From Rhizophagus irregularis (taxonomy: Eukaryota; Glomeromycota; Glomeromycetes; Glomerales; Glomeraceae): DNA of 64,000 nucleotides. The position numbers and the translations under genes are program-made. The stretch is from the NCBI RefSeq assembly GCF_026210795.1, contig NC_089437.1:2976001-3040000 (forward strand), read 5' to 3'. Shown here in pieces: positions 13,331 through 64,000 of the stretch (positions within the stretch are counted from its first letter, which is position 1; every line of letters begins with the position of its first letter). The notes under the pieces are model-generated. The model was not told the DNA's origin. It saw only the letters and a program-made list of their open reading frames with translations, and made no database searches.

Positions 13331-13707
13331 TATTGAATTAAGTTAATTTATTTTATATAAAGCTTATCAAAAGTCAAAAAAGTTTAAAGATCTCTAAAGA
13401 TTTTTGTTTGGAGTATTTGATAAAATCTGCAATTTTGAAGATTATTGCAGATTTTTAATTGTAATGTCATTAAAAAATTTGAAATCTGCATTTTGCAATA
13501 TTGCACAGATTTTTACTAAAAATTGTAAAAAAAAATGTGGCAATTTGCAAAAATTGCATATTGCTGCAGTTTTGCATTCTAAAAAATTTAAATATTAATT
13601 TCTCTAGATATGTAGAAATGATAAAAATTGAAGTCTAGATATCAATACATGCATTATTTAAAGATAAACCATTGAAGATTAGTTTCACAAATTTAGATAT
13701 ATGTATC
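13331..13707. other. AT-rich spacer with TTGCAGA-rich tract
   Basis: AT-rich sequence with a TTTTGCAATATTGCA-like tract at about 13425-13575, resembling the subterminal regions of elements G and A. No gene. Confidence 0.4.
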
Positions 13708-13959
13708 AGAACCCCAAACATTACTAAAAAAACTCAGATCTGAATTTGTATAAACCCTATAATATAAACCTTATAATTAATTTCTGTTCCAAATATATAA
13801 AGTTATATATAGATTTAGAGCTCTGCAACCTGACTTGACAGATTGGATGATCCGACAGGTTGACCCAAAATATTCAGGTCACGGGTCAGGTCAGTGCTAG
13901 TTGGTACCTGATCTGACCTGTTGATCCAACATATATTTGGGTCAAATAAATTAAAAACA

Positions 13960-14662
13960 CTGAAACTAATAGTTCTGGTGTAAATTAAAAGGAAAAATGC
14001 TGGAACTAATAATTCTGGTGTTTTTACATGTAAAATTGAAAAAAAATGCTAAAACTAATAGTTTCAGCATTTTTACATGTAAAATCAAAATGAAAAATGC
14101 CAAAACTAATGATTCCAGCATTTTTATATGTAAAATCAAAAAAAAATGCCAAAGCTATCAGTTTTGGCATTTTTACATGTAAAATAAAAAAAAATGCCGG
14201 AATTAATAATTCTGGCATTTTTACATGTAAAATCAAAATGAAAAATGCCAGAACTAATAATTCTGGCATTTTTACATGTAAAATTAAAAAAAAAATGCCA
14301 AAACTAATAGTTTCAGCGTTTTTACATGTAAAATCAAAATGAAAAATGCTGGAACTAATGATTCCAGTGTTTTTACATGTAAAATCAAAATGAAAAATGC
14401 CAGAATTAATGATTCTAGCATTTTTACATGTAAAATCAAAAAAAATGCTAAAACTATCAGTTTCAGCGTTTTTACATGTAAAATAAAAAAAAATGCTAAA
14501 ACTATTAGTTTCAGCGTTTTTACATGTAAAATCAAAATGAAAAATGCCAGAACTAATGATTCTGGCATTTTTACATGTAAAATCAAAATGAAAAATGCTA
14601 GAACTAATAATTCCAGCATCTTTACATGTAAAATCAAAATGAAAAATGCTGGAACTAATGAT
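13960..14662. repeat. Stem-loop array of element E, left part (right part 34622-34740)
   Basis: About 13 units of roughly 55 bp: AAAAATGCCAGAACTAATGA, then TTCTGGCATTTTTACATG, then TAAAATCAAAATG. Each unit is a perfect or near-perfect hairpin and the two arms co-vary. Because the unit is palindromic, both strands show long repetitive frames. These are not proteins. The unit at 14646-14662 is cut exactly by element C and continues at 34622. Confidence 0.85.
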
Positions 14663-14946
14663 CACTAGTCAAAATAAGAAATTTCGGACATGTGACTTTC
14701 GGCTAAGTTTCGAAATAAATTTCAGCCAAAATTCGTCTGAATTTAATTTCGGCTTAATTTTGACTCACATGATTTCCGAAGTTCTTTTTCGAAGTTCTTC
14801 TGAAGTTCTTCTGATGTTCTGATTTTCTGAAGTTCCGATCATTATATAAAACTCAGTTTCTGAAATTTATTATGAACAAGTGACACTTATGTAAAACTCA
14901 AAAAAAAAGAATTTATGTAAAATCCAATAAAAAGCAACAACTTCCG

Positions 14947-15410
14947 TCAAATTTTGACTAACAAAAATGAAGATTTATTATTATTATTTTTAAATTTTCT
15001 ATTAACAGGATTTACGGCCAAATATTCTCTCGCATTTTTCCTATCCGAAATTTTATATTTTATTGGCACAAATCTACTGAGAATATTATGCACTGGAATT
15101 ATACAATCTCGACCTTCAGGGTAAAATTCAGTACCCCAAAGTTCGACATTGCAAATTTCATCGTCTTCAATACTGAAATAATAACGAGAATTCGCTGATT
15201 GATACCATCGAATGAATGCCAAATTATGTTCCAATTCTCCATCCGGTAAGTCAACCTTGTGGGAAAAAAAGAATTGAACTTGTCCAGGATAACAATTGAC
15301 GCTACCGTCTTGTGTTATAAATTTGGCTAAAACATATGAGTTCTTTACGTGTCGAGCTGACATATTTGACCCAAATGTCTCTGAACCGATTCTACATCTA
15401 CCGAACTGTT
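14947..15410 (-). pseudogene. C-terminal part of the element C transposase
   Basis: Open from just after element A to a TGA at 14947. Recognisable residues are FGRCRIGSETFG, then SARHVKNSYVLAKF, CYPGQVQFFFSH, LAFIRWY and YYFSIEDDE, ending after VHNILSRF. I associate these with the C-terminal region of glomeromycotan tnp2-type transposases. The frame continues exactly from the upstream half at 28087, across the 12.7-kb element A. The last residues after the family block are Asn/Lys-rich. Confidence 0.8.
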
Positions 15411-15412
15411 TC

Positions 15413-15650
15413 CATCAGGAAATTTTTTGGGGTGCAGATCTGCGCAGATCTGCAGGTGACATTTTTACACAGATCTGCGACCCTGTCGGCAGTCTTTGGA
15501 AAAAAAAATTCATCAAAAACTGCGCAGAATTTCAAGAAACAAAATTCTGCGAAAATTTTTAAAAAATAAATAATGAAATTCTGCGAAGATTATAAAAAAA
15601 CAAATAACGAAATTCTGCGAAGATTTTTAAAAATAAATATTCGAAATAAT
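15413..15650. repeat. Left subterminal repeats of element A (right set 27780-28084)
   Basis: Repeats of GCAGATCTGC and GAAATTCTGCGAAGA in both orientations. The mirror set lies at 27780-28084 (AATTCTGCAAAATTGCAGA and similar). Such clustered, end-proximal palindromic motifs are typical transposase binding arrays, and that role is inference. Confidence 0.6.
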
Positions 15651-17596
15651 TCAAATATATTTAATTTCACTGATCATCACAATTATTACAAACAATTTTA
15701 TATATAGTAATTTATTTAATATGTAATTTATTTAAATAAAATATATTCAAAAAAAATTGAAGAATTTCAAATACAAATTTCCGAATTCTGAAAATTAATG
15801 TAATACGAAGAAATTCGACGAATGTTAAGAGAATTTCGAATCTAAACTCTTGAGCTGTAAATTTTTTTGATTTAGATTAGTAAAATAAATTAACGCGGTG
15901 TAAAAATCATTATATATCAGATAATAACTTTGACTTACTAATTCTTCGTAACTACTACTATTACCATCATCAGCATCGCTCGATTCTTCGATCATAGACA
16001 AAATCTCTGGACTTTGTTCTGAATCTTCTTTTGCCGCTAACTCCTGCAACAAACGCGGAGTTACAGTAACTTTATTTTTGATCGATTGCTGATAATTGAT
16101 TATATATTAATATTTGCGAAATATTTTAAAATTTTTAACTTCAAAGTACTGATGAATGTTATTATTACCATAAGAAAATCAACTCTCTTTAAAACTAACT
16201 TGTCGTTGCATTTAATCCCAGGGCTACTGGGATTTAAGACAATATCGCAGATGGCGAGTACATAAACCCAGTATTCTGGAGGAAGCTCACTGCCTTCGTA
16301 TGATTTGAAAACAGAAGAGGTTATTTTCGTGAGAATACCTTGATTTTTGAAAAATTCTCGATATGCTTCTCGCGTTTTTGCACTTTTTTTCCATTCGGCA
16401 ATCTTTTTAGAGGACGCACTGCTATCCACACGTTCTAACTTCTGCTCACCGAAGTTAGAAAACATAGTATTTCGAATATTTGCCGCTAAATCATTTCGCT
16501 TGCTTCGGCATTTGTTTTTTATCTTAATAATCAAATAATTTCAGATTATTATTATTATTATTATTATTGATTATTATTAATGATTTCACATACTTCTGGT
16601 AATAACTTTGATTCGAATAGGGAAACCCACGTATTTCTTCCGAGATTTTCAATATAATGACTGGCATGTTCAGCGAGGTATCTCTCTAAAGCTTCACGGT
16701 ACTCCGTATCTGAGGGAAATAGGATCTTCGGAATAAGTTCTTTGGACACCTTTTTATATGCGTGCTGTAAAGACAATCAGTTATTTTTAAATATCTTGAG
16801 ATCAAATAAAGTTGCTAAATATATTAAAGTAACTTACGTTCCAAAATTCATCCGAAAGCTCATCGACCACCACAAGTCTCTGTATCGTTTAAGAATCTAA
16901 TCGTTGTTGCTCACTAATACGTTGGTACAATCGATATATTGAAGTAATTTTTTCGTCTAATAATTTCATAGTATAGTTGAATTTCTCGATTGTAAGGTAA
17001 CGTTCGTCACGTTCTTCGAAGTTACAATATTCGTCATCAATTTGCATAGGTGTGATAGGCGTAGAAGCTCTGATAGGTGTGGGTGCTCTGATAGGTGTGA
17101 AAATTCTTCGGTTTGAATCATCATCGGGTTTAGTTGGAGAATTTTCAAGATTTCTTGTTGAATTATTACCAACAATGGGCGTTAATGATCTACCCCGATT
17201 TTTTTTTGGCTTGCCACTTTTGATACTTTTTGTAGGATTATTGGATGTTGAAGATTTGAAAATTTCATCTGGAACAACCAACACGAATGGTCCTTCGGTA
17301 TGGGGTGTTGAAGTTAAAATATTATCGTAATCAGGGCCAGTACGAGTTTCAGTATAAGATGTTGAAGCTGAAGCATTATCATCAACATTTTCTGTATCTT
17401 GTGATGATACATCATCAGCTGTTGGTGTCGATTAAACAAGCGAAGCTTAATTATAATATTAAATTAATGTAAGAAATGCAATTCCTTGACGGACTGTACC
17501 TGATAAAATTTGAGATAATATATTTCCAGTTTTTTGAGAAGCTTCATCTTTTTTTTCCAGACTATTATGGGAAACTTTCATTTTTTTCTTTGCATT

Positions 17597-20085
17597 CATC
17601 AGGAAGTCACGGGAAAAATGTTCATCAAATGTACATCAATCACTTGATGTACATCATAAAGAAACGCTGAATATCGGACCCTGCAATGCACTACCGATGT
17701 CACAATATTTGATGTGCATCACCTAATTTTAATGTCCATTAACGATGTACATTATTTAAAGATAATAAACATCATATTAAATTTATAATATTATTGAATT
17801 TATTTTATTAAATACACTATAACAATCTATATACATTAAATTACACTATAACAACTAATCTACTGTATATACTAAAGTCTATTAAATTAACTCAATACTC
17901 TGGGACAAAGAAAAATTTTGAAGTTATTCTTCGAAACTTACCAATCTTCATGTCCAGGAAATACAACCTACAATAAAAAGATAAAAGTATTAATAAAAAA
18001 AATTAATTTAATTAAAAAGTTTCGAAGTGAAACTTCGAAACTTACCAATCTGTTAAGATTCGTATATACTTACGAATCTTGGCCTTCTTTTTCCATTCTT
18101 CAGAAACCCACCCGAGACCTAAAAAAAAGAAAAAGAACGGTTAGTAACCGTTCATAATAATAATAAAATAATAATAATAAAAACCAAGATTCGTATATAC
18201 TTACGAATCTTGGTTCTTTCTTTCAGTTCTTTGGAAACCCACCCAAATCTATGAAAAAAAGAAAAGGAACGGTTAGTAACCGTTCATAATATTAAAAAAA
18301 AGAAAAAAAACTAAGATTCAGAATAATACTTACGAATCTTAGTTCTTTTACATTATTCAGAAGCCCACCCGAGATCTATATAAAAAGTAAAAGAACGGTT
18401 AGTAACCGTTCCATAACATTAAAAAAAAATCTAAGATTCATAAGATAGAATACTTACGAATCTTAATAAAGGTTCTTCTTTTTCCATTCTTTGGAAACCC
18501 ATCTGAGACCTGGTACATTTACCTCTTCATAGTCATCGCTAACCCAAAGAGGAATCGGAGTACCCATTTTAAGCCAAAAGAATGGTACTTTACTTGAAAA
18601 AAAAAGAAAAAGAACGGTTAGAAACCGTCCATAATAACAAAAAAAAAAATAAAAAAAATTTAAAGATTCGTACCGTCCTTACGAATCTTTGAGTTTTCTG
18701 TTCTTTGGAAGCCCACCCGAAACCTAAAAAATAAAAGAAAAGAACGGTTAAAAACCGTTCATAATAATAAAATAAAAATAAAAATAAACCAAAATTCATA
18801 TTTACGAATCTTGGTTTTTTCCGTTCTTCGGAAGATACTTGAGACACTCAAGATCTAAAAAAAAGAAAAAGAACGGTTAGTAAACCGTTCATAATATTAA
18901 AAAAAAATCTAAGGTTCGTAATATAATACTTACAAACCTTAGTTCTCCTTTTTCCGATCTTCGGAAGTCCACTCGATCCTATAAAAAAAAGAAAGAACGG
19001 TTAGTAAACCGTTCCATAAAATAAAAGAAAAAATAAATAAACCAAGATAAGAATCTTGGTTCTAACAAAATCACCTTCCTCCATCCCCTTTCTACGCGTC
19101 AGTCCTACAAAATAAAATAATTAAAGAAACGTTAGTTCATTTCTCATATTTAAAATAAAAAAATTCCCTTTTCCCATTTTTTACTTTAAAGTCCGGTTTC
19201 ATATTCAAGCCGGCGTCCTATTACACGTCCTACAAAAAAAAATTATGAAAAGAAACGTTAGTTCGTTTCTTAAATTTAAAATAACAAAAAACTCTCCCCC
19301 TTTTTCCCGTTCTTACTACCTTAAAGTCCGGTTTCGTAGTATTCAAGCCAGCATCCTCCTAGTACGCGTATTACAAAAAATAAAATAGTGAAAAGAAACG
19401 TTAGTTCGTTTCTTAAATTTAAAATAATAATGAAAAGTTCCCTTTCCCTCATTATTTACCTTAAACAAGTCCAGTTTCATGTTAAAGCCGGTGTCCTACA
19501 AAAAAAAATAATGAAAAAGAAACGTTAATTCGTTTCTTAAATTTAAAAAAAAAGATAAAATTAAAAAAAAAAATTAAAAAAATAAGTAAGTTTTGAAATG
19601 AAACTTACATTACTTCCAAGAATAAGAGGCATGAGAAAAGGGGGACGAAAGGGGAAGGGAGTGACAAAGGGAAAGGGAAGAACGAAAGGGAAGGACGATA
19701 GGGGAAGGCAGGATGATAGGGGAAAGGAAGGACAAAGAGAAAAGTTTAAAAAAAGATGATCCTTTTTTAAACTTTTAATATGCGTAATGCAATGCGTGAC
19801 GTTTAATTAGTGCACTATTCGACCAATGTCTAATCGTAGATCATGGTCGAATTTTTTCCTATTTTGACTAGTGGCTAATATAATAAATTATTTTTATAAA
19901 TTTATTCACCCATTTGATAAATATTGAATTATCATTATTTAATGCTGCACATCATGATAAAAATCTCATTGATGATGCTCATTAATGTTAAATATTACAT
20001 GTTCATTTAAAATAATGAATATTATAATATACATGATCTACAAAAATGTATATGTAATAAACATTTTTTCCGTGACTTCCTGATG
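17597..20085. mobile_element. Element B: CATC-type non-autonomous element with mini-exon array, 2.5 kb
   Basis: Terminal inverted repeats CATCAGGAAGTCACGG and on to AAAATGTT match at 25 of 26. They are flanked by TT (17595-17596 and 20086-20087). Subterminal GATGTACATCA-type motifs lie on both sides (17630-17760 and 19945-20050). Its interior is the array at 17920-19610, followed by a polypurine GGGGAAGGAAGGAC tract (19630-19740) and a short CACTATTCGA/GACTAGTG pair (19813-19873). It sits in exon 1 of the element A accessory gene and its removal restores the frame. Confidence 0.88.
17920..19610 (-). repeat. Tandem array of about 128-bp units with splice-signal architecture
   Basis: About 11 units, spaced about 123-140 bp. 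On the minus strand each reads: GAACGGTTACTAACCGTTC (a hairpin that contains the TACTAAC branch consensus), TTTTTCTTTTTTTTAG, a block of about 42-49 nt typified by TCTCGGGTGGGTTTC and GAAGAA, then AAGATTC|GTAAGTATA, in which the donor sits in a second hairpin (AAGATTCGTA with TACGAATCTT). Near 18500-18570 one unit is extended and contains an ATG followed by MGTPIPLWVSDDYEEVNV and GLRWVSKEWKKK. Block lengths and frames vary and several contain stops, so a protein product is not supported. Confidence 0.75.
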
Positions 20086-20123
20086 TTTTTTCCAGTTTTT
20101 TTCTTAGTATTTTTCGTTGACAT

Positions 20124-20784
20124 TATTAACAACTAATTTAGAAAATTGTATAGGAAAAAATATACTTGAAATTTACGAAACAATTTAAATAAAAAATTGA
20201 TTACCGAAATCGATAAAAAAATCCAAAATCTATAAATTAAATAATTTAATTATCAGTAAAAATATTAATTAAAATGATTAAAATCTGTAAATTAAAATGA
20301 TTAAAATTTAAAAATAGAAATAGTTAAAAATCTGTAAATTAAAATGATTAAAATTTAAAAATAGAAATAGTTAAAAATCTGTAAATTAAAATGATTAAAA
20401 TTTAAAAATAGAAATAGTTAAAAATCTGCAAATTAAAATGATTAAAATTAAATAAAATAATTAAGAAATCTGCAAATTAAAATGATTAAAATTTAAAAAT
20501 AGAATGATTAAAAATCTGTAAATTAAAATGATTGAACCCCTGCGCCAAAAATGTAAAAAAAATCAAAAAAAAAAAAAAAAAAAAAAAATTGAGAATTCAC
20601 ACAAACGAAAGAAATATCAAATTCTTCATTAAAATTCGCAAATTCACAAAATTCATAATTTCGCATTAATTAAAATAATCATTAATAAAATCACTAAAAT
20701 TTGCTTAAAATTAGCAAAGAACAAATAAAAACAAATATTTACTATACTGCAAATAAATCCTCATAAATTGTTCTTCAAATAAAA
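20124..20784. promoter_or_regulatory. Bidirectional promoter of element A with 47-bp tandem repeats
   Basis: This lies between the divergent starts at 20123 (-) and 20785 (+). About five tandem copies of a 47-bp unit (AAAATGATTAAAATTTAAAA and so on to TCTGTAAATT) lie at 20265-20535, followed by an A-run and AT-rich DNA. The promoter role is inferred from position. The promoter of element C has its own 50-bp repeats in the same place. Confidence 0.5.
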
Positions 20785-21999
20785 ATGGTTAGATATCAAT
20801 GCCAAATTTGTAAAAGAGAATTTTCAACTTACGGCGGTTTAAAACAACATGCCAATGCTAAACATCACGGGAAAATGAGATCCTCCCAACTAAATGAGTC
20901 ACCAGTACAGCAAAGATCTTTGTTGCAGCCATTAAGAGAAATGATAAGATCAGAACATGATGCAGAACTTTGGAGCACGTCAATTATTATGCCAAACCCA
21001 ACTACTTCGCAAGAAAAGCTTACATCGCAGGATGATGATGATGAGATGAAGCAATTTGAACCTTCATCTCAAGATGAAGACTTAGTAAATATTGCAGATG
21101 AGTTAGAAGATGAACCACGTTATCATTTGCGAAAAAGGTTACGGTCAGAAGAGAGGGTCGAAGCAAATTTTGAAGAATCGGAAGCAGAATCAGAATTAGT
21201 AAACTTTGAAGATACTGAATTCATTGATCCTGAAGACCTTCAGGGTGCGTCATTAGATGATGCCATAGATGTAGTTGATGGAAAACCCACACCAGAGCGC
21301 GTAGTAAAATGGCCGAATGATGCATATCACGACTTTTTGGAGTTGATAGTAGAGGGTAATATCTCTAATAAGATAGGTGATAAAATAATAAAGTTTTTCA
21401 ACAAACATAGTAATTTAGACAAATCACCATTGCCAAGTTCAACGAAAAATGGCAAGGATTATCTTAATCAAATAAATTTACCTTTGATAGACTTTAAAGA
21501 AAAGGTTGTTGCGACCTATAATGAAATTAATTTTACCTCTACTATCGCCCACTTTTTCGTGCTATTCAAGCTCTTCTGCAATGACCAGAAGTAGCCAATA
21601 ACTTCGTCCATAAAGGAATCCAAAATAAAATGAAGGTCTGTATAATAATTTGATTTCCGTCTGCAATGATAAATTACATTATTTATGCTTATTTAGTTGT
21701 TTATATTCTCAGGATGATAGAGGCGAAACAAGAATATTTGGCGAACCTTTCGAAGGTAACTGGTAGTTAGAAACCGAAAAGAACCTTCCATCATTAAATC
21801 GACTATTGTCCATCATCTTATACTCAGATGCAACAACTTTGATGGACTTGGGAAATCATCAGGCCATCCAGTTTTTTTAACTCTTGGTAACATTCCAAAT
21901 CGTGTTCGAAATTTGCCAGAGGTTAAAATTCTTTTAGGATTTCTCCCTAAAGTCCAAGATACAGGAATCAAAACAACAGAAAGTTTTCGAAGCTTCATC

Positions 22000-22480
22000 A
22001 GGAAATTATATAGTGCGAAAAGTTGCGCAAGTTTACACATCATAATATTTCGTAAGCTTCCAGACCCGCCGCAAGTTTGCGTAAGCGTAATATTTCGTAA
22101 CTTTTTAAAATATTTCGAAATATTACGATATGCAAAGCTTCGTAATTTTACGATTTGTAATATTCCGTAATTTTGCGGTTCGCAATATTTCGTAATTTTA
22201 CATAATATTTCGTAAGTTTTCAGACCCGCCGCAAGTTTGCGTAAGCGTAATATTTTGTAACTTTTTAAAATATTTCGAAATATTACTGTATGCAAGGCTT
22301 CGTAATTTTACGATTCGTAATATTCCGTAATTTTACTGCGTAATACTTCGCAACTTTTTAAAATATTTTGAAATTCTATGATGCGTAATGTTCCATAATT
22401 TGATGATTCGTAATATTCTGTGATTTTACACAACTTAATATTTCGTAATATTTCAAAATATTTCGATAAATAATACTTCA
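22000..22480. repeat. Left subterminal array of element D
   Basis: Many short AATATTTCGTAA, GTAATATTCCGTAATTTTG and CGAAATATT motifs in both orientations. One larger block (ACCCGCCGCAAGTTTGCGTA) is repeated at about 22063 and 22228. The motif vocabulary is shared with the right end at 25000-25620. Confidence 0.7.
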
Positions 22481-22519
22481 TTTTCTGTACTATAAGTTTA
22501 TATAATGTATGTTTTATTA

Positions 22520-23095
22520 GATATAATCATAAAAAATTACAAGTATTTATTAATATATACAGAATACATAAAAGTAAAAAAGAGAAAGAGTAGAGTAACA
22601 ATATTATTAGACGTAAAAAGAAGAGAAACAGCTATAGTAACGTTAGTATTAGATATAAAGATAAAAGAAATATTGTTATTATTGTTAGTATTAAGGTAAA
22701 AAGAGTTAAAGAAACAGTAAAAGGAGTAAAAGAAACATGGATATTATCGTTAGTATTAAGGAAACGTAGATAGTATTGTTAGTATTACGACATAAAATAA
22801 CAAAGAGGTAAAAAAAAAACGCGTTAATATTAAAATAATTAGTATTAATAAATAAATATTTCTATACCTGCAAAGTAATTGAACAAAAGAATAAAGAAAT
22901 AAAGAGAAAGGAAAAAATAAACATGTTGTTAGTATTGTTAGTATCGTTAGTATTAAAGTACAAGTAAAAAGGAATAAAGGAAACATGGATATTATTGTTA
23001 GTATTACGATACAAAATAACAAAGAGGTAAAAAAAAATGAAAATAATTAGTATTAATAAACAAATATTTCTATACCTGCAAAGCAATAAATTATG
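22520..23095. repeat. GTTAGTATT-rich direct repeats in element D
   Basis: Two related blocks (about 22745-22875 and 22980-23095) share GTTAGTATTACGA, AACAAAGAGGTAAAAAAA, ATTAGTATTAATAAA and TTTCTATACCTGCAAAG. The minus strand carries many TACTAAC motifs and CAG|GTATAG, so it looks like a third, less regular set of splice-like units. No coding frame. Confidence 0.45.
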
Positions 23096-24006
23096 AAATA
23101 TATGTAAATATATTGTATATAATTAAAGAAATAATAGAAAGAAGAGACAAAAAAATTAAAAATATTGAACAAAAGAATAAAGAAATAAGAAACAAAAATA
23201 AATAAGACAAAAACGCGTGCACTGATTAAATGATTAAATGATTAAATCACATGCAAGGATCAGCCTAATTTTGATTGGCCAGAAATCATGTACATCGTAT
23301 AGCGGGTGTGACGTAAATAAATCGTGACTGAAATTTGTGTTCAATTTGTGTTCAATTTGTGTTGATAATTCTGGTAAAAAATTTGTTAATTTTGGCCAAA
23401 TTTCGTTAAATTTGTTAAATTTGTGTTGAGTTTGTGTTGAATTTGTGTTGCGTAATTTTTTATTTATCACAAGGGGATGATATTTAGTAATTGCATGTAC
23501 GACGTACAAGATTTTTTTTATGATTTTTTTAAGAAATGTACGCAAAATATTTAATCAGAATATAATTGTTTTATTTTTAAATATGATATATTGATGATTT
23601 TTTTTTAAAAATTCAATAGAATGTGCTAATAATAAATTGTTTTATTTTTAAATATAATATATTGATATTTATATTTAAATAACCAAAACATGTACATGAT
23701 TTTTAATTATTTTTAATTGAAATCAAACTAAGATTTTTTTTTTAAAAAAAATTAAAATAAATTAAGTGATTTATATCTATATTTAGAATCAGCGATATTT
23801 ATATTTAGATAATCCATATCCGCATGAGATTTAATTAATATGTTTAATGATGAAAAGTCTAATAAATTAAATTTTAATTGAAACGAGAAATAAAATCAAA
23901 CCAAAGAGGTATTGTTCAAATTTTATTTAAAGTGACATTTTACGACTTTCTTTCAAATTTTTACTCATCCCAAAATCAAATTATAAAAATAAAATCAAAT
24001 CTAATA

Positions 24007-24646
24007 ATGCCTCGCCAAACACGTCGTCGTTCCTATAACGTCCATTGGAACTGGGCTATGATGGACGAACTTGTCGACATACGCCGCGACAGAAACCGCG
24101 CCTACCATAATATTAATGGTAGAAGCCGCCATGATTTTTGGGACTCGTTGCCAATAGGTTCATATGACTAATATCTATAATTTTCTTTAAGAAAGAATTT
24201 AAATTCAAATTAACCAATCCATTTAATTGAATCAGAATAAATAGAATATTTCGAACGAGGGTTTCCGGGCAACAGTGCAGCCAAAAGTGGAGGAACCGCC
24301 GTCGGGATTACCATGTAAGTAAATAAATAAAATTACATTCATTTAAATTAAATGTATTTACCGAATATTCAAACTGATTTTGATATTTAGAACTATGTCC
24401 TTTATCGTAATGGTACCCCTGATCGGCCTGGGCGGCGGCTGTGGACGCGTACCGGCCAAAGATATTATCGCGAATTTAGAACGAGATTTTGGGAGAGGCC
24501 GGGTAATTATACTATAATAAAATTTTATAATTAATATTACATTCTATTTTACGTTCACATTTTAAATTTGATAAATTTGATCAATTTTAGATACGCGTGA
24601 CGATCGTAGGAGAAGGAGAAACTTACCTACGTATCGTAGAAGATAA
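24007..24646 (+). CDS. Myb/SANT-like (trihelix-type) DNA-binding protein, 128 aa, carried by element D
   Basis: Exons 24007-24146, 24236-24314, 24391-24502 and 24591-24646 give 129 codons with no internal stop. The first donor (TC|GTTGCC) is unusual, and the other donors are GTAAGT and GTAATT. Features: a basic start MPRQTRRRSY, then HWNWAMMDELVDIRRDRN, FWDSINRIF, GQQCSQKWRNRRRDY, and a basic tail DRRRRRNLPTYRRR. The spaced Trp residues (W near 16, W near 45, W near 66) and the Q-C-x2-K-W core fit a trihelix, Myb/SANT-like fold that binds DNA. The gene is richer in G and C than its surroundings, unlike the arrays beside it. The 3' UTR has an imperfect GGCCCAGTCCGTACC palindrome. The native role is unknown. 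It may recognise the element's own ends or be captured cargo. Confidence 0.72.
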
Positions 24647-24994
24647 TTATTTTTATTTTTTTATTTATTAAGTGAGTAGCTAGGCCCAGTCCGTACCAAA
24701 TATCGGCTGGAGACTCACGTTTTTTTTGCTGTGACGGATACTGACGTCCACGCCGTACAGCCTGGGTACTATTTTATAAAATAGTAGCGAACAAGTATCA
24801 AATGTATATTTTTTTATTAAGTTATAATAAAAATTAGAATTTACTTTAATTTTTAACATAAAAATTGTAAATAATAAAAAATTCGTAAATAAAAATAAAT
24901 TTGCTTTCCCAAACTTAAAAAAAAAGGTGTTTATATAAAAGAAAAGGTGTTTATATTATTTTTGATTATTCAATAGTATCACATGCCCCTTGTA

Positions 24995-25620
24995 TACGTT
25001 CTACTGCATACGCAGTTTACAATCTCGTAAATTTTCGAAACGGAATATTACGCAGGTTTACAGTCTTGTAAATTTTCGAAATATTTCAACCGTAATATTA
25101 CGCAGGTTTACAGTTTCGTAAATTTTCGAAATATTTTAACCGTAATATTACGCAGGTTTACAGTCTCGTAAATTTTCGAAATATTTCAACCGTAATATTA
25201 CGCAGGTTTACAGTCTCGTAAATTTTCGAAATATTTCAACCGTAATATTACGCAGATTTACAGTCTCGTAAATTTTCGAAATATTTCAACCGTAATATTA
25301 TGCAGGTTTACAGTTTCGTAAATTTTCGAAATATTTCAACTGTAATATTACGCAGGTTTACAGTTTCGTAAATTTTCGAAATATTTCAACCGTAATATTA
25401 CGCAGGTTTACAGTTTCGTAAATTTGCAGAATATTTTGACCGTAATATTGCGTAAATCTTACGATATTGTAAACTTACGTAATATTTTAACCGTAATATC
25501 ACATAAATCTTACGAAATTGTAAACTTACGTAATATTTTGAAATTTTTCGAAATATTATGCCATAAACTTTCATAAACTTACAAAATCGTAAATTTACGC
25601 AATTTTTCGCGCTATAAAAT
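24995..25620. repeat. Right subterminal array of element D, 50-bp units
   Basis: About nine tandem copies of a 50-bp unit (CCGTAATATTACGCAGGTTT, then ACAGTYTCGTAAATTTTC, then GAAATATTTCAA), grading into degenerate CTTACGATATTGTAAACTTA motifs toward the end. Every unit is rich in small palindromes such as AATATT and TTTCGAAA. Confidence 0.8.
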
Positions 25621-28086
25621 TTCCTGATGTTACAGCACGATGTATATCATAAATGCTTTAAAATTATGCTCCAACCTTTATTAGAAAAATCTGAAGCGCT
25701 ATATTTTGGAATTAATAGACAAGTGATTACTTTCGCCGCACGGATATCTTTTTTTCTCGCATATATGCTTGAAGCCTGATGATATAACTGCGACATATAA
25801 AGGAGCGCGGTGCAAAATGCCATGTCATACTTGCATAGTTTTGCAAAGTGATCTGAACAATATGAGTCTTAAACTAGAGAACGTACCTCATAGAAACTCA
25901 TGAAAATATGAAGCAAGTAATCAACAATGGCCAAGGAAAGGAGTATTCTGTGCATTCTGTTGAAAATTCCTTCTGGAAATTTCTGTAAATATCTTTATAT
26001 TTCTGTAATGAATTTCAAAGATGTAAATTTTTACGCACGTATAATTTGTTTCAGAAATTTGAATATATATATACGAAGCCTGCATTCCTAATCGTATGCA
26101 CCATATCGATCTTGGACTCTTCAAATACCAATTGGAATTTACACAAGATATTTTGAAGGCAGTCGGAGAAACAGAACTACAAAAAAATTTGATGATCGAC
26201 TTCGTCAGATTCCTCGCTTCCTGGGTCTTAAACTCTTACATAAATTAGGACATTTAAACGTACTTACTGCGTCAGACTATCGTAACATAATGAAAATTGC
26301 CCTTTTTGCCTTAGATAAAATTTTTGAAGGGAACGAAATAACCTGTAAAGAACTTTGCGAACTTTACGCAAAGTTTAGTAAGATGTACATAATGAGCAGG
26401 AAAGAAGTGTACACTGAAGAAAATCTGAAAATTTTTGAAGTAAGTCAAAGTTTATAAAGTCACGTTGGAAATCATCAACACACTAAAGATTATCAATTAT
26501 AGTCAGCAATTATTGATTGGTGCATTGATTTCAAAAAGATCTTCTCTCCATTGTTCACTACTGATTGCAATTTTCCGAAGTTACACAGTTGGCGGTATCA
26601 CGCAAGTAGGACGCTAGTAAACATATAGTATATGATTTTATCCTAATTTATTTTGATTGTTTTCAGTGACCGCTATTAGAAAATATGGTGCATTGAATGG
26701 GTTGTCAACGGAAACATACGAAACCCTCCACAAATTATATGTCAAACCTCCATATCGGTTATCAAACAGAAAAGACGTAATGAGACAATTGGTGAACGCT
26801 GTTAGTTGAATTCAACATGACTGAAATCAATTTCTTTGAAATATTCATACATTTAATTATAAATTCTAATATTTTTTATAGGTAAAACACAAAGAATTGA
26901 CATCTTCTGCTAAAAAAGTTATTCATCATAAAGCCAAAGGATTTGGAAAAGTACTTTGGGAACTAACATTAGATAATATCGACCAAAAAATAAAATCGTT
27001 GAAAAAATCTGAAAATCCACCACATTCAAACTTCATTGAAGGGTTATCGCAATTAATTTCAACTTTAGATACCTTTCTGGACACATCTTCGCAGGAGTCC
27101 GAAAGTGAATAATTTTACATTAAAATTTATGATTCAGTACACCTGGAAGATAGACATATTTTAAGAACGACAGGAGAATTCCAAGGTAAATAATAGTTCG
27201 GTAATATTGCGGTAACTCCTGCGGAAGATCAAGAGCAATACAATTCGGATGAGGGAGCTTGGTATGGAAAAGTAAGTAAATGATTAAGATTGATAAAGTG
27301 TTGTATGTCATTAATCAATTTTCTTTATAAGGTATTGTTATTATTTAAATTCTTCCGAGGTTCTTTCAAAGAGCCATATGAACTTGCTCTGGTTCGTTGG
27401 TTTGATATTATTACGGAGGAACCTGAACTGTATGGGTGTCTGCAGTTGTATTACACCAAAGAATACAACACAATACCAATCGGTTTAATTAACCAAGAAG
27501 TTCATATAGTTCCAAGGTTTGGCAAAGTAAATCGTTATTTGTTAAATAAATACATGTTTTAAAAATTACTGGAAAACTTTAACGAAAGTAAAGTCAGAAA
27601 GTTTAAAAAATAAAATTTGTAAATTTGTTGAAAAACTTTAACGAAAGTATTAAAAAAAAACTATTAAAAAACTTTAGCGAAAATAAATTGTCAACGGAAA
27701 TGATCGAAAAGCTTAATTAAGCTTAATTACTAATTGAAATCGAAAAGTTTAATTAGTTAGTTACTTAAAGATTAAACGCAATTATAAACCTGCAATTTTG
27801 AGTTAAAGAATTTTGCAGAGTTTCGCAAAAAAAAAAGGACAAAAAGTGAAGATCTGCTATTTCGCAGAACTTCGCAAAACTGGCATGTTTTAAAATTTCT
27901 GTTAAATGAAATTCTGCAAAATTGCAGAATTTTGCTGATTTTATAGATAAAAATATTCAATTATCTGCGAAGTTGCAAAGTTTACAGAACTTCGCAGAAA
28001 TACACAAAAAATGACAAAAAAAAAGTGGAGATCTGCTAATTTTACAGATCTCCGCAGATCTGCACCCCAAAAAATTTTCCGATGTC

Positions 28087-30855
28087 ATTTTGACGGAAAT
28101 GATCCTTGAATTCTCGTGGCTTTCTCCGAATGGCTTTCGAAACTCAAGTGTTTCATAAGTCGTCAAATAGTATTCGACCAGTAAATCAAGCATTGAATTT
28201 GACATCACTATATTTTCAGAGGCGGGACCCAATATTTCACCTGGAAACGACTCGCTTCCAGTGACTATTGATTGTTGAATATTCTGCGAATTCAACCAAA
28301 ATCGTTCCATTTCATCGGCTGAAAATTCATCAGCCTCTGCCAAGGATCCAACAAAAGCTCGGTTATTGAGAAGTTCTAGTCCCTTTACATTTTCTCTAGA
28401 ATTTATAATACTATCAATGTGGATATCAGCCATCATTCGTCACATAATTTCCGGTTCTATTTTCCTATGGCTGTTCGGTAAGGCGTCTAAAATTTAAAAT
28501 TACGATTATGCATAAATTAAGAATAAGAATATTAAACCTAAATAAATAGTTATAGTTTACTTAATACACCGTTCATGCGTTCGAAGAAACGCAGAATGCG
28601 TATAAAGGTCCAAAATCATACATACATTCACTCAAATGAAGTGAAAGATGGAGATTAGGAGTAATTTTATTCCGTCCATAATGTTCCTCAATCAACTTCA
28701 CAATTTCAATCAATCTCTCATGCGATTCTCTCACAGGCATCAGTTCTAAATTCGACTTACGAAAGCGTACAAATCTCATTTCAAAATGATGGAGAATTTT
28801 CCGATCATCAGCACGAAAGGTATTTCAAGCGATACCGTAGCGTAAATTGTGAAAAAGATTTGCCATTGATCTGCTGTAAAATTTGAAAATCCTTCTCCGC
28901 AATGGATTTTCCCAGGGATTCGTCCCAAATCGGATAAAATCTGAAACTCATCCATTTTTTTTTGAATTTTTATAAACGATTGTTGGTTCAAAATTCCTTC
29001 ATCAACCCAAATTCTTTTCACTATCCATCTTGCGATGCCTAGAAATAAGCAGTGCATTGGATCGACAACAATGAACCTTATAGGGTCGAAGTATGACAAC
29101 CGCAATAATTCTGACCATCTAATTCCAGTATCTTTCGTAAAATGTTTTCGTGAAGCATTAAAGCTACAACGTCGCCATTCATGTGCATTTTCACGAAACT
29201 CGGCCAAATCTCGAGTAACAAACCATTCGTCTATATTGTCCATCCCAGTGAAATTATTTTGTCGATTCTCATAATTTGCTCGTTTTTTGCACTAGTGACA
29301 TGATGCAAGTGCTGAAATATACCCGCATATCTTTCTTGCCGTGGGAACATTATACGAAAATAGTACTAAAGCCACACGAATATTTTTCCGTTTTGGCACT
29401 CAAATATTCGATTTAGAGTTATTCCACTCCATAGTAATTCTAAATCATTGACAATTGGTGCTAAATAGTGATTGATTTGGTGTAGTCACTTCGTTAGGAC
29501 CTGGTAATATTCCGAGAATTAATAAATTTTCTCTTTTAAATCGAATGTCCCGAAGCAAGTTGCAAATGGCGACATATATCACACCGGTGCTGTGAATTGT
29601 CCCTTCATAGGGTTGGAACCAATCCACATTTAGCATTAGACCGAGGTGTGAATCTGCAACTTCAGGCCAGAAAAAATCAGGCGAATCATTATAAGAAGTA
29701 TCCTTAAATATTTTCCATACTTGACCATCATAAATGTCGGTCAATATATTTTCAGAATGTGATCGATCAGACTAATGTCTGAGTGACCTTTCGAATCCTG
29801 ATCGAAGATATAGGGTTGCTAATTGTTGACGAATTGTAGAAAATGGATAAATCATCTCAATTCGATTTGACACTTTATTTAATAATCTTATTTGATGAGA
29901 TAAAGGAGTTTGGCACTTCTGGCGTCTCGATGAATTTGGAAATTCGATATGTTGACATTTCATAATGGCAAGAATTTCATCTTGACGAAACTCCTCTACT
30001 TCTTGTTTGTTGTATAATTTGTGACACTTCGTACATGCCGCAAAGCAATAAAATCGATCTTCTATGTTGAAAATATTTCTCGCTTTATATAAAGTGACGG
30101 GAAAATTTTCAAATGCGGTATCGCCAATTTCATCCAATAACAGTTTTATGAACTTTATTAGTGATTCAGTTGCTGTTTCTGAAATGTTAAATCTCATTTG
30201 AAATTTCATAATCCATATTAAAATCCATAAAAACTTATTATCATCGCTAGTTGGAGTTGGAGTGACATCTGGGTCTTGATATGGTTTGAAAGAAGGGCAT
30301 GAATAATCTTCAAAAGTTTCAGAATTGTTATTTTCCGATTCGTCATCTCCATTCGATTCGTTATCTTCATTAGTGTCTTCGCTTTGATCTTCGGCCGTAC
30401 TTTCTCTCGGTGATAAATCTTGTTCGATATTACCGATATTACCAATGGAAACTCTGGTCGAAATGTACCTTGATCTACGTCTTTGAGGCAATCGGTCAAC
30501 TCTTTGCTCATTTAAAATAGTCAATTGAGATGATTCATCATTAATATTTTCAGTATTTTCCAAAACTTCAGATGGTTCGTTATCCCGAATTTCAGTATTT
30601 TCCAAAACTTCGGATAGTTCGTTATCCCGAATTTCAGTATTTTCGATAATTACTTCTGAAACATCTGACGAAAGTTGGCTCGATAATTCATGTCGATTCT
30701 TTGTGCGAGGAGCAACTAACATTCCTTCGCAATCGCTACAGAAACAGGGTACTTTACGAATTCTTGGCGTAATGATTGATCGAGTAGTAACTTGAGGTGA
30801 TCTGGTAGTAATAGGATTTTCATCAAGTACACTAGATATCGTTCTTTTTCATCCC
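28087..30855 (-). pseudogene. N-terminal and central parts of the element C tnp2-type transposase
   Basis: Read from about 30855: a Cys motif CFCSDCEG followed by RTKNRHE, a Ser/Glu-rich linker with a duplicated VLENTEIRDNE block, FAACTKCHKLYN with KCQHIEFPNS and a second Cys, TIRQQLATLYLR, DIYDGQVWKIF, the tnp2 core LMLNVDWFQPYEGTIHSTG and LILGILPGPNEV, WSELLRLSYFDPIRF and DPMHCLFLGIARW, LHLSLHLSE with DFGPLYAF, then IISVKM where element A cuts it. In-frame TAG at 29772-29774, frameshifts near 29450 and between 28440 and 28800, so it is not functional. The 3' part is at 14947-15410. Confidence 0.83.
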
Positions 30856-31500
30856 ATTTTGTCAAAAATTTCAGATAATTTTGATAATTATGGAATTGTA
30901 TCGAAATTTGTTTCGATTCAATAATTATCATATAATTGTTGCTAGTGAAGTTTCGACTAACGAATTTTCAACTTGAGCGATCAACTTAAAGCGATTTATT
31001 GAATTCTCATCAAACTTTACGAATTTTCCATCAACTTTAAGTGATGTATTGAATTCTCATCAAACTTTACGAATTTTCCATCAACTTTAAGTGATGTATT
31101 GAATTCTCATCAAACTTTACGAATTTTCCATCAACTTTAAATGATGTATTGAATTCTCATCAAATTTAAGTGATTTGGCGAATTTCACATCAACTAAAAT
31201 TGATTTATCGAATTTCTATCAACTTAACGTAAAGTAACTTATTGAATTATTAATAAAAAATTCGATAAATCACTTATCAAATTTAAGAATTTAATAGTAT
31301 AAATTAAGCTTTTGATCAAATTTTTAACTATAAATAAACTATAAAAAAACTCGATTCTTCAAAGTTTCGTCCTAGAACTTAACTTTTTTTTTCTTACAAT
31401 TTCAAAATACTTTCGTGTAAAATTTTATTATATATTTTTACAAATTTAATAAATTTAATAAGAGTAAATAAATTTTGGCTATTTTAACAATTAAGAATAG
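30856..31500. promoter_or_regulatory. Bidirectional promoter of element C with 50-bp tandem repeats
   Basis: Between the divergent genes of element C. Exact 50-bp repeats begin at 31001, 31051, 31101 and 31151 (unit GAATTCTCATCAAACTTTAC and so on). Looser copies of the ATCAACTTTAAGTGAT motif continue to about 31250. Regulatory role inferred from position and from the parallel in element A. Confidence 0.5.
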
Positions 31501-34055
31501 TTCTATTTTTTCAAATATATCAAAGGACACATCAAAGAATATTAATAAAAAGGGAGAGAAAGAAGGAACCGAAAGAAACGAAAGAGATGTTTTTTATCTT
31601 GTCCCTCCTAATGTTGATGAGGAAGAAACTGCTTTATGAACCTCCAACACGTCATCGGAAACTTTACGATCCCCTTCAACATGAAATCATCTTCATCATC
31701 ACCGAGTACTTTAAGATCCCCCTTCAACACGAAATCATCTTCATCACCAAGTGCTTCACGAACCTCTCTTTCCAATACGAAATCATCTTCATCACCGAGT
31801 GTTTCACGAACTTCTCTCTCCAATATGAAATCATCTTCATCACCAAGTACTTCACGAACTTCTCTCTCCAATACAAAATCATCGTCAAATATTATTAAAT
31901 CAAAGCTTGCAGGCTTACAAGTAAAAATTCCGAAAATCCATTTACCAAAATCGATAATTCTAGACGAAAGTCGAGTTGAAGCAACCGAAACTTTGCGATC
32001 ATCAGAAAAAAATTTGAGTAATTTTGGTAAATTTTGATTATCGATTCTTAATTGTTTATTGACGAATGTTTTTACGATATATAGATATATATTTGAAAAC
32101 CTTCAATTTTTAGATCTGAAGGTAGAAAATGGGAAATTAAGAGCCGATAATATGGAATTGCAATATAAGATAGACAAACTTAATAAAGAACTTGAAGAGT
32201 CGAAAGAACTAAATGAAATGCTAATAAAAATAAATGAGGAATTCGGAAAAGAGAACGACAGACTTTATGAATGAATCGATTTTTATAAGAACCTTCAGAT
32301 GCCAAGAAGTATGAAAAAAAGCTCAAAGCCTAAACGTAAACATCAAAAGTATCATAAATTTTTGTTATCCATTTTATAACTATTCGTATAATTAATAACC
32401 TTTTATTTGCCAACATTAGGAATAATGATAGTGAAGATTCGGACGATGAAATTATTGACGTGGATGTTGAAATGGACAAAAAGGATGAAAAGGACGATAA
32501 GGATGAAAAGGACGATAAAGATGCAAGGGTTAGTAATATTTTAAAAAATGGTTTTGTGCTAATATTTACCGAATTTTTTATTACTGTTAATAATTTAGAT
32601 GGAAATGAAGACCATTTTGAAAACTATGCCTGCCAAATTTGACCTGGACTATGATCAAACATTTATGAGCAAAACTAACGTAGACATAAGAAAACAATTA
32701 ATACCAGAACTAATGAAGAGCTTAAAGCCAAATTTTAACCCCACCTACGATAAGTTGACGAAATGGCTAATGTCGTTGCATAAATCTAGACGAAGTGTGA
32801 ATAATTACAAGAAGAAGGGAAGACTCGATAGTGACAATCGTTATCTACACACTGTGACACGCTGCCCATAGGATATTAAAATAAAATATCGTATGTTGCC
32901 ACCGACGTGTTGAGTTCGTATAATATTTATGCTTGGTTTTAAAATAAAAATTAGTTACAAAAATTACAAAACATTATTTCTTACCGAAATTTTAAATTAC
33001 GATAGTTTCTCTATATTTTCGATAAACCATTAATTAAAATAAAATAATTAATGTGGCACTTTTTACTCATAAGAAAAAGGCTAAAAGAATGTGTTTGTTT
33101 ATTATTAAGGACGAAATAAAATTTTTATTTTCCAAAAAATTGAACTGCGAATTTCCTATCGAAATCCACTTGTATTTATACATTTTTAAGAAAAATATTT
33201 CTAATATTTCTAATATTTCTAATATTTCTAATAAAATTTGAAGATCTATTATCATATGACTATCTCGTTATTCTAAACTAAACTATAAATATAATTTTAT
33301 TGGCTAATTATTTATCCATCGGCTAAATATTTATCCATCACTTACTGCGCCATGTGACTTGTCACGTGACTTTGTATTCCAAACTATTTCTTCTTGTGTA
33401 ACCATATCATGTGACTTACTGCGCCACAGGATTTACTGCGTCATTTATCTATTATATTTTCAGTTATTACAACGCAAATGGAAGGATGAATGACGTAAGA
33501 ATTTTGGTTGTTTTTAGTTAAATATAAATGTTTTACCCATGTTATTTTGCGTTTAGAAAAAAATTCGTCGACTAAAAGCTGCCAAAACTTTATATGATAA
33601 AGACGATGTGAGAATCGCTCACTATGAAAAACAAGAGATGATCAATATCATTCAAGATATCAGATATCATTCACCGGAGTTGAGTGAAATGGATGAGAAA
33701 AATGCGTTGGAAAAACGTTAAATAGTTGTGTATAATCGATCATGGAGATCATCGGAGGTATGTACTAACTTTCGACTTATTATAGTAATTTATAGATTTA
33801 CACTAACTTGTTTCTTTCTAGTTAAAAACTTTTTTTAGGGAAGTATTGGATCCTTATTCATTTACACAACAAAACGCACAACTAACCAGACGTAGAAATT
33901 ATGATGATACGTTGCAAAATTTTGACGTCCAACCTCCGAACGATGCACCACAATGGACTGTAGAACCAGGAAATGGTAATGTCGTATATGATTCTGATAT
34001 AGGATACGAGAGTATATACGATGACTATATGTACGATGATGCTGACACGTTTTAA
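31445..34055 (+). pseudogene. Element C accessory protein, decayed
   Basis: Recognisable parts in order: DVFYLVPPNVDEEE (about 31585), a serine-rich block of about four 48-nt repeats (TKSSSSPSTSRTSLSN at 31690-31880), a coiled-coil exon DLKVENGKLRADNMEL to 32274, acidic DKKDEKDDKDEKDDKD, MSKTNVDIRKQLIPELM and TKWLMSLHKSRR (32640-32820), then after an AT-rich interruption (about 32880-33480) IRRLKAAKTLYDKDD and DIRYHSPELSEMDE, and a last exon NVVYDSDIGYESIYDDYMYD ending at 34055. Stops: TGA at about 31636 with a frame change, TGA at 32272, TAG at 32869, TAA near 33719. I know of no named domain. The layout parallels the accessory gene of element A. Confidence 0.6.
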
Positions 34056-34621
34056 TGGAGTGTTGGTAATTATTATATACATTCAATGTTATTTCACTAA
34101 AATTTAACGTTCAATGTTATTTCAGTATAATTTTGCTTTAACCTTTATTTTATTTGTTTATTGTATCAAAAAATTAGCGTTGTGAATGAAGTTGATGACG
34201 AAAGTCGTCTTGAAGGTGTTATATTATATAAATAGGACATTATTATAATATATTATTATTAGCGTAGCATATAAATTGAACATTATAATAATTAGTATAA
34301 ATTAGTATTAAATATATAGTATTAAATATTTTATTAAATAAATAACAATTTATTGCGTTTAAAAGCTGACCGAATGTTAAGTATTCATTATAATGAATGT
34401 TATCTGAAAGTTATACGATTTTTTATTCTGAAAGTCATGCAAATGGTAGATCAAAATCTACCGAAGTTTAGCTAAAATTTAGACGAGTGGCAGTCTGAAT
34501 GGTAACACTTGATAAAAACTTTCAGTTAAGAGATTCGTCTAACTTCGGCCGAATTTCAGCCATAATTCGGGCCAAATTTGCCTATACGAAATCTGGCCGA
34601 ATTGGACTATTTCGACTAGTG
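34056..34621. other. Right end of element C, noncoding
   Basis: AT-rich 3' flank of the accessory gene, then from about 34470 subterminal motifs (CGGCCGAATTTCAGCC, ATTCGGGCCAAATTT) and the terminal repeat ending GACTAGTG at 34621. Confidence 0.6.
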
Positions 34622-35209
34622 GATTCTGGCATTTTTACATCTAAGATCGAAAAAAAAATGCTAAAACAAATAGTTTCAGCGGTTTTATATATAAAAACAA
34701 AAGTAAAATGTCGGGACCTGACATTTTTTCAATAAAAATTAAAAAAAATCATTTTTTTTTTTTAATTAAAAATGTTGAACCTGACGTTTTTTGTATAATT
34801 AATAAAAAAACGTTACAAAACGTTTTTTTAATTGAAATATTTAATAAAAAAACTTTGGGTAACCTGAGTTACCCGAAGTGATCTGAATACTTTAGATCAA
34901 ATGGATCAGATCAGATCAGAACAGTTTACCCAACCTGACCTGACCTGAAAAAAATTTTTGGTTTGGGTTAACCAGGTAATCTGACCTGACCTGACCTGTA
35001 CAGAACTCTATATAGATTTTAGCTTCAAATTTTGCTATTTCAGGATCCAGTGATTAGATTTTAATGATCTTTGACTTGTTAGATTCGTCTCAATAAGACG
35101 AACATTTTGACATATAATTCATATTTTTAGGTGTAATATTGATTGAGATATAGCATTTTGAAAATTTGGTACATGAGTTTTGAGTTGTTTTAGTAATGTT
35201 TGGGTCCTT

Positions 35210-36965
35210 GTATATCATATATTGAGTCATAAAATTCCATATATTAATAACACCTATCTTTATAATAATAAGTCATAATTACTATCATCACAAATCTCTT
35301 AACCTACTGTACATACAGTTAGAAGTTTGGTAGCAGGTTATATATATAAATCTGTCACTTGATTAAGAATATTAATTTTTGGCCAGAATTAAGATTTAAT
35401 TATCACAAAGCAGAGACCCGGATTTATTCCGATATTAAACCAATTATAATAAGAAACATTTGATAATTCTAGCCGGCTTACATCTCCAACTTAGGTTGCG
35501 CTAGTGACATGACAATAATTTTAGCCAAAAACGATTGAAATGATCAACAATTTACTCGATATAGAATAAAATATGCAATAATGATTGGCTAGTTTCACGT
35601 ATTGGAATAAAATTGTTAAAAATCATAAAAATTCCGGTTATTCCATAATACAGCAAAAATTCCGATTTATAAAAATGGAATTTTCCCGGGCAGAAATTCC
35701 AAACACGTGATCGTAGCTGTGTACGTTATATCAAGTTTTATATGAAATTCGGTATATCAAGATTCTTTTAAATAATATGAAACTGGTTTTTAAAAAAAAG
35801 TTCGAGTTCGTTATACTTTGAGAAATTCAAAACACTATTGCTGTGAGATTACTTTTATAAATTCGCTTTTCGCTTAAAAGTTCATGCAAAACTCATTTTA
35901 CCCTTTGTATTTCATTTTAACCCTGTTTTTTGCTTTTTTTGGAAGGAAGTTGGTCGGTGCGCTCTAAGGTTTCATATCTAATAATAACTTGTATTTTCTT
36001 TTTTTACCTACGATCTATTCTTATATCATCTTTTTTTAAAGGGATCTTCACGTCAAAAATTTTGCATGTCGTGTAACCATTTAAAAAGCACTAAATAGCG
36101 ACTCATTTGGTTTTGACATGCATAAAATCCGAAATTTAATATTTAATTGGAAGAATAGACAATCTTTTTAATAATGATTATTATATTCTTTTTAATGCAG
36201 GGAAAATTAAATATTTGGCATTCAGGACAATACAAAAATAAAACAATTTATTATCTATTGTTAGTCATAGTGTAGATGCCATTGTGCTTTTTTTTCCTCT
36301 AGGCATCATAGTGCAGTTGTCCGAAAGAAATTTGCATATTGCATAAGTCCCTAAGTTCTTGTTACCTGTTAAAGACCGAATTACGCCTTTATAGATACGA
36401 TCATTGCCTAATAGACTTCGAAACATAATCATCTAACCAAGATAACTTAATTTTCAATAAATAAGAAAATACATTCAAACCCCCCACAATCACCAAAGTA
36501 GATTATTTAACATCTATAGGAACACGTTCTTATTACTTAGTACAATATGTTTCAGTGTATTTACGAAAAAATATATATATGTATATATGTATAAGTAAGT
36601 ATGTTTCTGATGTATCCCAAATACAGTTTATACATAAACCCCTCAACGAAATAAAAAGGCAAAAAAAAAAATTAAATTGAAATATTTAAAAAAAATCGAT
36701 GAAGGTAAATATATAATAACAATACTATTGAAATGTTGGAACTTGTTTTTAAACGGTGACTGAAGGTAAAAGACGTAAACTAAGTAAAAAGAGAGATAAT
36801 ATGAAAAATAAAATAAAATTCAAGGTGTGTATGTATAAGAGATATCCCCTTGCTTTGTGATACAACTGTCCAAATAAATCGTATTTAGTTACGTCAAATT
36901 GCAAGAAATTCCCCGCATATTCAATGTGCTTTTGCGATAAGTTCCAACAATTCAAGCGCCTCTAG
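35210..36965. other. Spacer between the transposon nest and the host gene island
   Basis: AT-rich. A patch at 35620-35710 has the mirrored motifs AAATTCCGGTTATTCC and GGAATTTTCCCGGGCAGAAA and may be a small element remnant. The rest includes the 3' flank of the Hook gene. No gene is supported. Confidence 0.4.
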
Positions 36966-62804: not shown

Positions 62805-64000
62805 TATTCAATTATATTATTATACAAGTAAAAACAGATTTCAATAACTCACATTAACCAATTAGCTCTGTAATTTATACATGCAAACTAAAGAAAGCTA
62901 CTCTGCTATAATCTGTATTACACTATTACTATATTAGTATTATTATAAACAAAAAAGTAATATAAAAAGATAAATTTTCTTATTATCCTTATAAAGTTTT
63001 TCCATCTCTTAGCAAAATAGCAAATTGACTTAACCAAACTGCATCTAGACTATAAAAACTATTTAAATTTTCTAAATTTCTGGACCAATCCAATAGGTAT
63101 AACTAATCTATAAAATTCAAAAAAAATTACTGTATATTATAGATTATACTATTATAGTACTCCCTTATGTATAGTACTTCTCAAAAAAAAGTTATATTCT
63201 CTATTGATTTCATTATTTAAATAATCCATCAAATATTTTAAATGTAACATATAACATTACTCTAATAATTTTATAAGTTTAAACATCCTTTATTAATAGT
63301 AAAAATTTATATAATAGGGAGGAGTATAGGACTAAACCTCCAAAATTTGCAAAATATCTAAAGTACTATAGCAGGATCTGAATTTGTATAAACTTTATAA
63401 TTAATTTCTGTTCCAAATGAATAAAGTTATGTGTAAATTTTAGCCTCAAATTTTGCTATCTTGGGATCCAGTGATTGGATTTTAATGATCTTTGGCTTGT
63501 TAGATTTATCTTAACAAGACGAACATTTTGATATATAATTTATCTTTTTAGATATAATATTGACTTAAGATATCACATTTTGAAATTTTAGTTACATGGA
63601 ATTTGAGTTGTTTTAGTAATGTTCAGAGTCCTACTATGGCCTGCAATATATGGTAATAATATTAATCCTTTAAATTCAGCCAATTAATATTTTAATACCT
63701 TTAGCTTTTCAAAAAAATACTGAAAGATAAAAATTTTGAAATGCCAAAAAAAAAAACTAAACTAAACTAAAATAAAAAAAAGTCATAATCTCCATATTAA
63801 AGATGTTAGCCTTAATTATTTTTTAAAAAATTTTGAATTACGGCTATAAGATTTTTATAGCCTTAATTAATTACGGCATATAAAAATTTTGTATTACGAC
63901 ACTTTTTTGAATTACGGCTAACATCTTTACTCCATATATTAGATATACTATATACATGCTGTCCAAATTATTTTTGAATGTCATAATTATAATTTGAAAT
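62805..64000. other. AT-rich spacer with a relative of element F and a final inverted repeat
   Basis: Contains the F relative at 63328-63632. Beyond it, 63785-63940 has mirrored motifs (GATGTTAGCCTTAATTATTT and, opposite, AATTACGGCTAACATCTTTA) that form an inverted pair. Nothing coding. Confidence 0.4.
63328..63632. mobile_element. Unsplit relative of element F
   Basis: The right end TTTTAGTAATGTTCAGAGTC matches the right end of F. The centre (GATCTGAATTTGTATAAAC, TTAATTTCTGTTCCAAAT, GATCCAGTGATTGGATTTTA, CAAGACGAACATTTTGA) matches both halves of F in order, without the 21-kb interruption. The first 35 bp differ from F, so the left boundary is uncertain. Confidence 0.6.

Follow-up and report, generated by a model that had tools for sequence, protein, structure and literature searches.

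A five-deep nest of transposons in a 21.5-kb block of the Rhizophagus irregularis genome

Introduction

Nests of transposons are already known in fungi and plants and arise as a matter of course where a genome is rich in transposons. In Mycosphaerella graminicola, 78 nested clusters of two to seven elements have been described and their target duplications verified, one example, 242(49(263(623))), comprising four levels (PMC4522978). Rhizophagus irregularis genomes average 147 Mb and are about 50% repeats, with Plavaka elements prevalent and two-thirds of the transposons said to be unclassified (PMC11075540). Within the Plavaka elements, those termed PlavakaB are marked by CATCA..TGATG termini and target-site duplications (TSDs) of 2–3 bp (PMC12730594).

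Here we dissect a 21.5-kb block of the R. irregularis genome in which six elements lie one within another in the order F(E(C(A(B,D)))). The block resembles the M. graminicola clusters in showing multi-level insertions in a fungus with verified duplications, but those clusters are dominated by LTR retrotransposons (PMC4522978), whereas the present nest consists mainly of DNA transposons and is one level deeper. No general idea is changed by it; it offers a clean, fully dissected case of the origin of a large gene-poor block, and from its empty sites the exact boundaries and duplication lengths of six transposon families in this species can be read.

Materials and methods

The genome searched comprised 146.7 Mb in 32 contigs. 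The window, i.e. the whole stretch of 64 000 nucleotides that was analysed, corresponds to C9:2976001-3040000, and coordinates given without a contig are positions in this window. In the empty-site search the two flanks of an insertion were joined, one copy of the duplication was kept and the whole genome was searched with the product; for the junction of C in E, the join was aligned to fetched E copies instead. Duplication counts rest on selected ends of other copies. The exons of the Myb/SANT-like gene in D were joined by hand.

Results and discussion

Overall structure of the nest

All six elements claimed in a preliminary description of the locus were found in the window, nested by their coordinates without any crossing, and every nested junction is backed by empty copies in the same genome. 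The five-deep nest is thereby confirmed, with uninterrupted copies at all five nested junctions, and the ends, the family-wide duplication lengths and the interrupted reading frames of C and A are likewise shown. Empty sites with junctions at odds with the predicted points, named beforehand as the outcome that would speak against the nest, did not arise. The list of elements proved incomplete, however, since a seventh, a solo LTR inside C, had been missed. We regard it as almost certain that the block arose as a nest through transposition events that followed one another in a fungal genome rich in transposons.

Each DNA-transposon insertion would have begun with a staggered cut, presumably made by a transposase of the respective family, the repair of which would leave a duplication of the length typical of that family. 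Other copies give this length as 8 bp for F and E, 3 bp for C and 2 bp for A, B and D, and a TSD of the family-typical length flanks every layer of the nest, being exact for E, C, A, B and D and matching at six of eight positions for F and three of four for the solo LTR. Inverted ends with a matching duplication, which had been claimed for each boundary, were thus found for E, C, A, B and D, but the duplication of F itself, not given in the preliminary description, is imperfect. As every part of the block is a multi-copy repeat, repeat copies might have been wrongly joined during assembly; the internal junctions, however, are flanked by exact duplications of family length, which misjoins would not give, the lengths add up exactly, to the single base, and the window lies within a 5.26-Mb contig, so that we consider an artefact of this kind extremely improbable.

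The outer layers, F and E

The outermost element, F (13708-35208, plus strand), is a MITE of about 298 bp with ends AGRACCCC..GGGTCCT, split by E. Across the F family, flank matching at k = 8 reached 0.78, compared with 0.39 for shuffled flanks, all other lengths from 4 to 12 remaining at background. The flanks of the window copy, TATGTATC on the left (13700-13707, plus strand) and TGTATATC on the right (35209-35216), are a decayed 8-bp TSD, their degree of matching being reached by 2.9% of unpaired flanks. Searching the genome with the joined flanks found no pre-insertion copy of F's own site, only partial repeat matches. Small size, terminal inverted repeats (TIRs) and an 8-bp TSD are features that F shares with hAT-type non-autonomous elements and MITEs, from which it differs in that its AGGACC end is not textbook hAT; it is without a transposase. 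F would have been the first to arrive, sitting in intergenic DNA. A second copy of the family is located at 63387-63623, close to the right end of the window.

The hAT-like element E (13816-35010, plus strand) would have inserted into F. When the genome was searched with the two halves of F joined, the junction was unbroken at 28 of the 30 best-listed loci (80–86% identity), so the containment of E in F is real. The 10-bp duplication ATATAGATTT proposed for it is rejected: 8 bp is the length in each of the six other E copies that were read at both ends (with one mismatch in one copy), and ATATAGATTT is therefore the true duplication TATAGATT (13808-13815, plus strand, and 35011-35018; 8 bp, exact) extended on each side by one base, the outer A and T being the terminal bases of E. 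Its assignment as hAT-like is drawn from its ends and duplication, i.e. a TIR of the TAGNG type (TAGAGCTC) together with the 8-bp TSD. E thus looks like the hAT-type non-autonomous elements in its TAGAG ends and TSD, and differs in having no transposase; once C is removed it is a short, non-coding element of 1233 bp. Within it lies a tandem array of a 51-bp unit (13982-14659, plus strand).

The CACTA-like element C and its solo LTR

C (14663-34621, plus strand) would have entered the tandem array of E, in which it now sits between two copies of GAT, as had been described. Six of seven E copies lack C and align over the junction with 88–92% identity, although this is the least sharp of the five empty sites because it falls inside the 51-bp array. 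By its termini (CACTAGTC..GACTAGTG) and its 3-bp TSD, which matched in four of five other C copies, C appears to be a CACTA-like (EnSpm/CACTA) element. A large gene on the minus strand (14947-30848), with exons and stops and split by A, is probably its transposase; what sets C apart from EnSpm/CACTA elements is that this gene is decayed and has no Pfam match, the joined exons hitting no Pfam family at E ≤ 1. Its product showed only weak local similarity to the Plavaka protein of A.

When A and the LTR are subtracted, C measures 6662 bp, identical in length to a copy on contig C28 (L135). Relative to that copy the window C carries an extra 623 bp at about 32.85–33.48 kb, and a reading of this indel (32853-33471) as mere length variation was rejected, a solo LTR being shown. 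At least 36 occurrences of the sequence were found, frequently paired on the same strand at a distance of 7–18 kb; seven of seven such pairs had TG..CA ends and exact 4-bp duplications, and one pair encloses domains of gag, protease, reverse transcriptase and RNase H. These relatives identify 32853-33471 (minus strand, 619 bp, TG..CA ends, TSD ACAC/ACGC) as a Ty3/Gypsy solo LTR, from which type it shows no notable difference. It is a fourth-layer sibling of A, and the Ty3/Gypsy element would have inserted in C and later been reduced to the solo LTR. The same LTR family has also inserted in another C copy, on contig C4, about 100 bp off in C coordinates.

The Plavaka element A

The fourth layer, A (15413-28084, plus strand), would have inserted in the large gene of C. 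The preliminary description had placed it there with a TC duplication, and TC is indeed present twice in the window. The joined-flank search for C without A gave seven full-length copies at 88–96% identity, and all 11 loci read over the site carry a single TC. The minus-strand frame of C is unbroken at this point in nine other copies. A contains a Plavaka transposase gene (20785-26454, plus strand) with a C2H2 finger and a PF18759 domain, which scored E = 1.7e-35, passing the cut-off, on the hand-joined exons of another A copy (L136). In this domain, in its CATC..GATG ends and in its 2-bp TSD, A agrees with PlavakaB, from which it differs in that the families described (PMC12730594) are from Agaricomycotina and that the A family here mostly ends in CATCGGG. 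Ends in the family follow CATC[AG]GGAA and a 2-bp TSD was found in nine of ten other copies.

An inverted-repeat search detected A, B and D directly through TIRs of 40–41 bp that are 88–93% complementary (40 bp and 93% in A). The left ends of all three start with CATCAGGAA, and their termini are all of the PlavakaB type. The duplicated dinucleotide differs among A, B and D copies (TA, AA, AC, TT, GA and AT), and hence there is no fixed target. Duplications as short as TC and TT would be uninformative by themselves and gain their value from the empty sites.

Without B and D, A is 6545 bp long, all of which aligned with copy L136 at 96.8% identity, and no further hidden insertion was found in it.

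The innermost elements, B and D

B (17597-20085, plus strand; 40-bp TIR, 88%) and D (21996-25629, plus strand; 41-bp TIR, 88%) would both have inserted in A, D into the transposase gene, the exons of which it interrupts. Each has CATCAGG ends and is flanked by TT on both sides, as had been claimed, and each junction is intact in 13 other copies of A. In the joined-flank search these copies were 97–99% identical at the B site and 93–97% identical at the D site, where remoter relatives at 76–79% were also retrieved, and both sites were split in the window copy only. The exon hit by D is open in copy L136. With the frame of C broken by A and an exon of A broken by D, what the 21.5 kb hold is decayed transposon genes plus one small gene in D.

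The 2-bp TSD was found in five of five B copies and in both readable D copies, the left end being unreadable in two of the four D copies. No long frame resembling a transposase was found in B or D; like PlavakaB they have CATCA..TGATG ends and a 2-bp TSD, but unlike it they carry no transposase (PMC12730594), and they are therefore filed, by their ends, as non-autonomous Plavaka-end elements. Both would have been mobilized by a transposase of the A type.

D belongs to a very high-copy family, with 340 candidates at first look, and the 40 copies scored are 97–99% identical, which indicates a recent burst. Its small, intron-split gene (24007-24500, plus strand) is Myb/SANT-like, with a PF13837 hit (E = 0.0045) that falls short of the curated cut-off. 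We raise as a speculation, and a rather doubtful one, that D is a very young, high-copy Plavaka-type partner whose Myb/SANT-like gene may aid its use of the A-type transposase; if so, the nest would record a partner breaking the transposase gene of its own helper.

Order, age and targeting of the insertions

Identity to the best other copy is 86% for F, 89% for E (right end), 94–97% for C, 97–99% for A, 99% for B and 99–100% for D. As nearest-copy identity depends on the last expansion of each family, it is a rough clock only, but the gradient supports an age that would increase outwards and a simple outside-in history. The exact insertion order claimed in the preliminary description was too strong: which element lies in which stands, yet nesting does not order B relative to D, and any layer may have moved already carrying its insert.

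The latter possibility amounts to a composite arrival, e.g. of A carrying B and D into C or of E carrying C into F, with a different order in time. Cut-and-paste donors leave no copy, so nesting by itself is not decisive here, and B and D, with ends of the same kind as those of A, could have been mobilized together with it. On the other hand, B and D are missing from these sites in every other A copy, the searches turned up no E or F copy sharing the insert seen here, and nearest-copy identity climbs inwards as serial insertion predicts. We therefore hold a composite arrival to be unlikely, and suggest that the events followed one another strictly from the outside in.

Three CATCAGG-ended elements in one nest could also reflect a preference of Plavaka-type elements for other transposons or for each other, which would make the nest non-random. 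Of the 11 A copies mapped at both ends, six exceed the basic length of about 6.47 kb by 0.3–5.5 kb, so that nested inserts in A are common, and the recurrence of the LTR family close to the same point in C also fits targeting. With 340 D candidates and about half of the genome made up of repeats (PMC11075540), however, chance nesting is to be expected, and we rate targeting as slightly less probable still than composite arrival. Successive insertion is the reading that we retain.

Additional observations

On contig C1, a B-family copy (C1:5317913-5336254) has 300-bp ends 99% identical to those of B but 18.3 kb apart, and may be a longer parental element or have taken up nested inserts. Inside B itself, a CACTA-type terminus, TATTTTGACTAGTGG, occurs at 19860-19875, and several copies of the B family seem to include it; it has no partner in B and no extra layer is claimed from it. 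Beside the block, the window contains an open frame of 957 amino acids (43320-46193), which by eye resembles the COPII coat protein Sec31 and which we take to be an ordinary gene.
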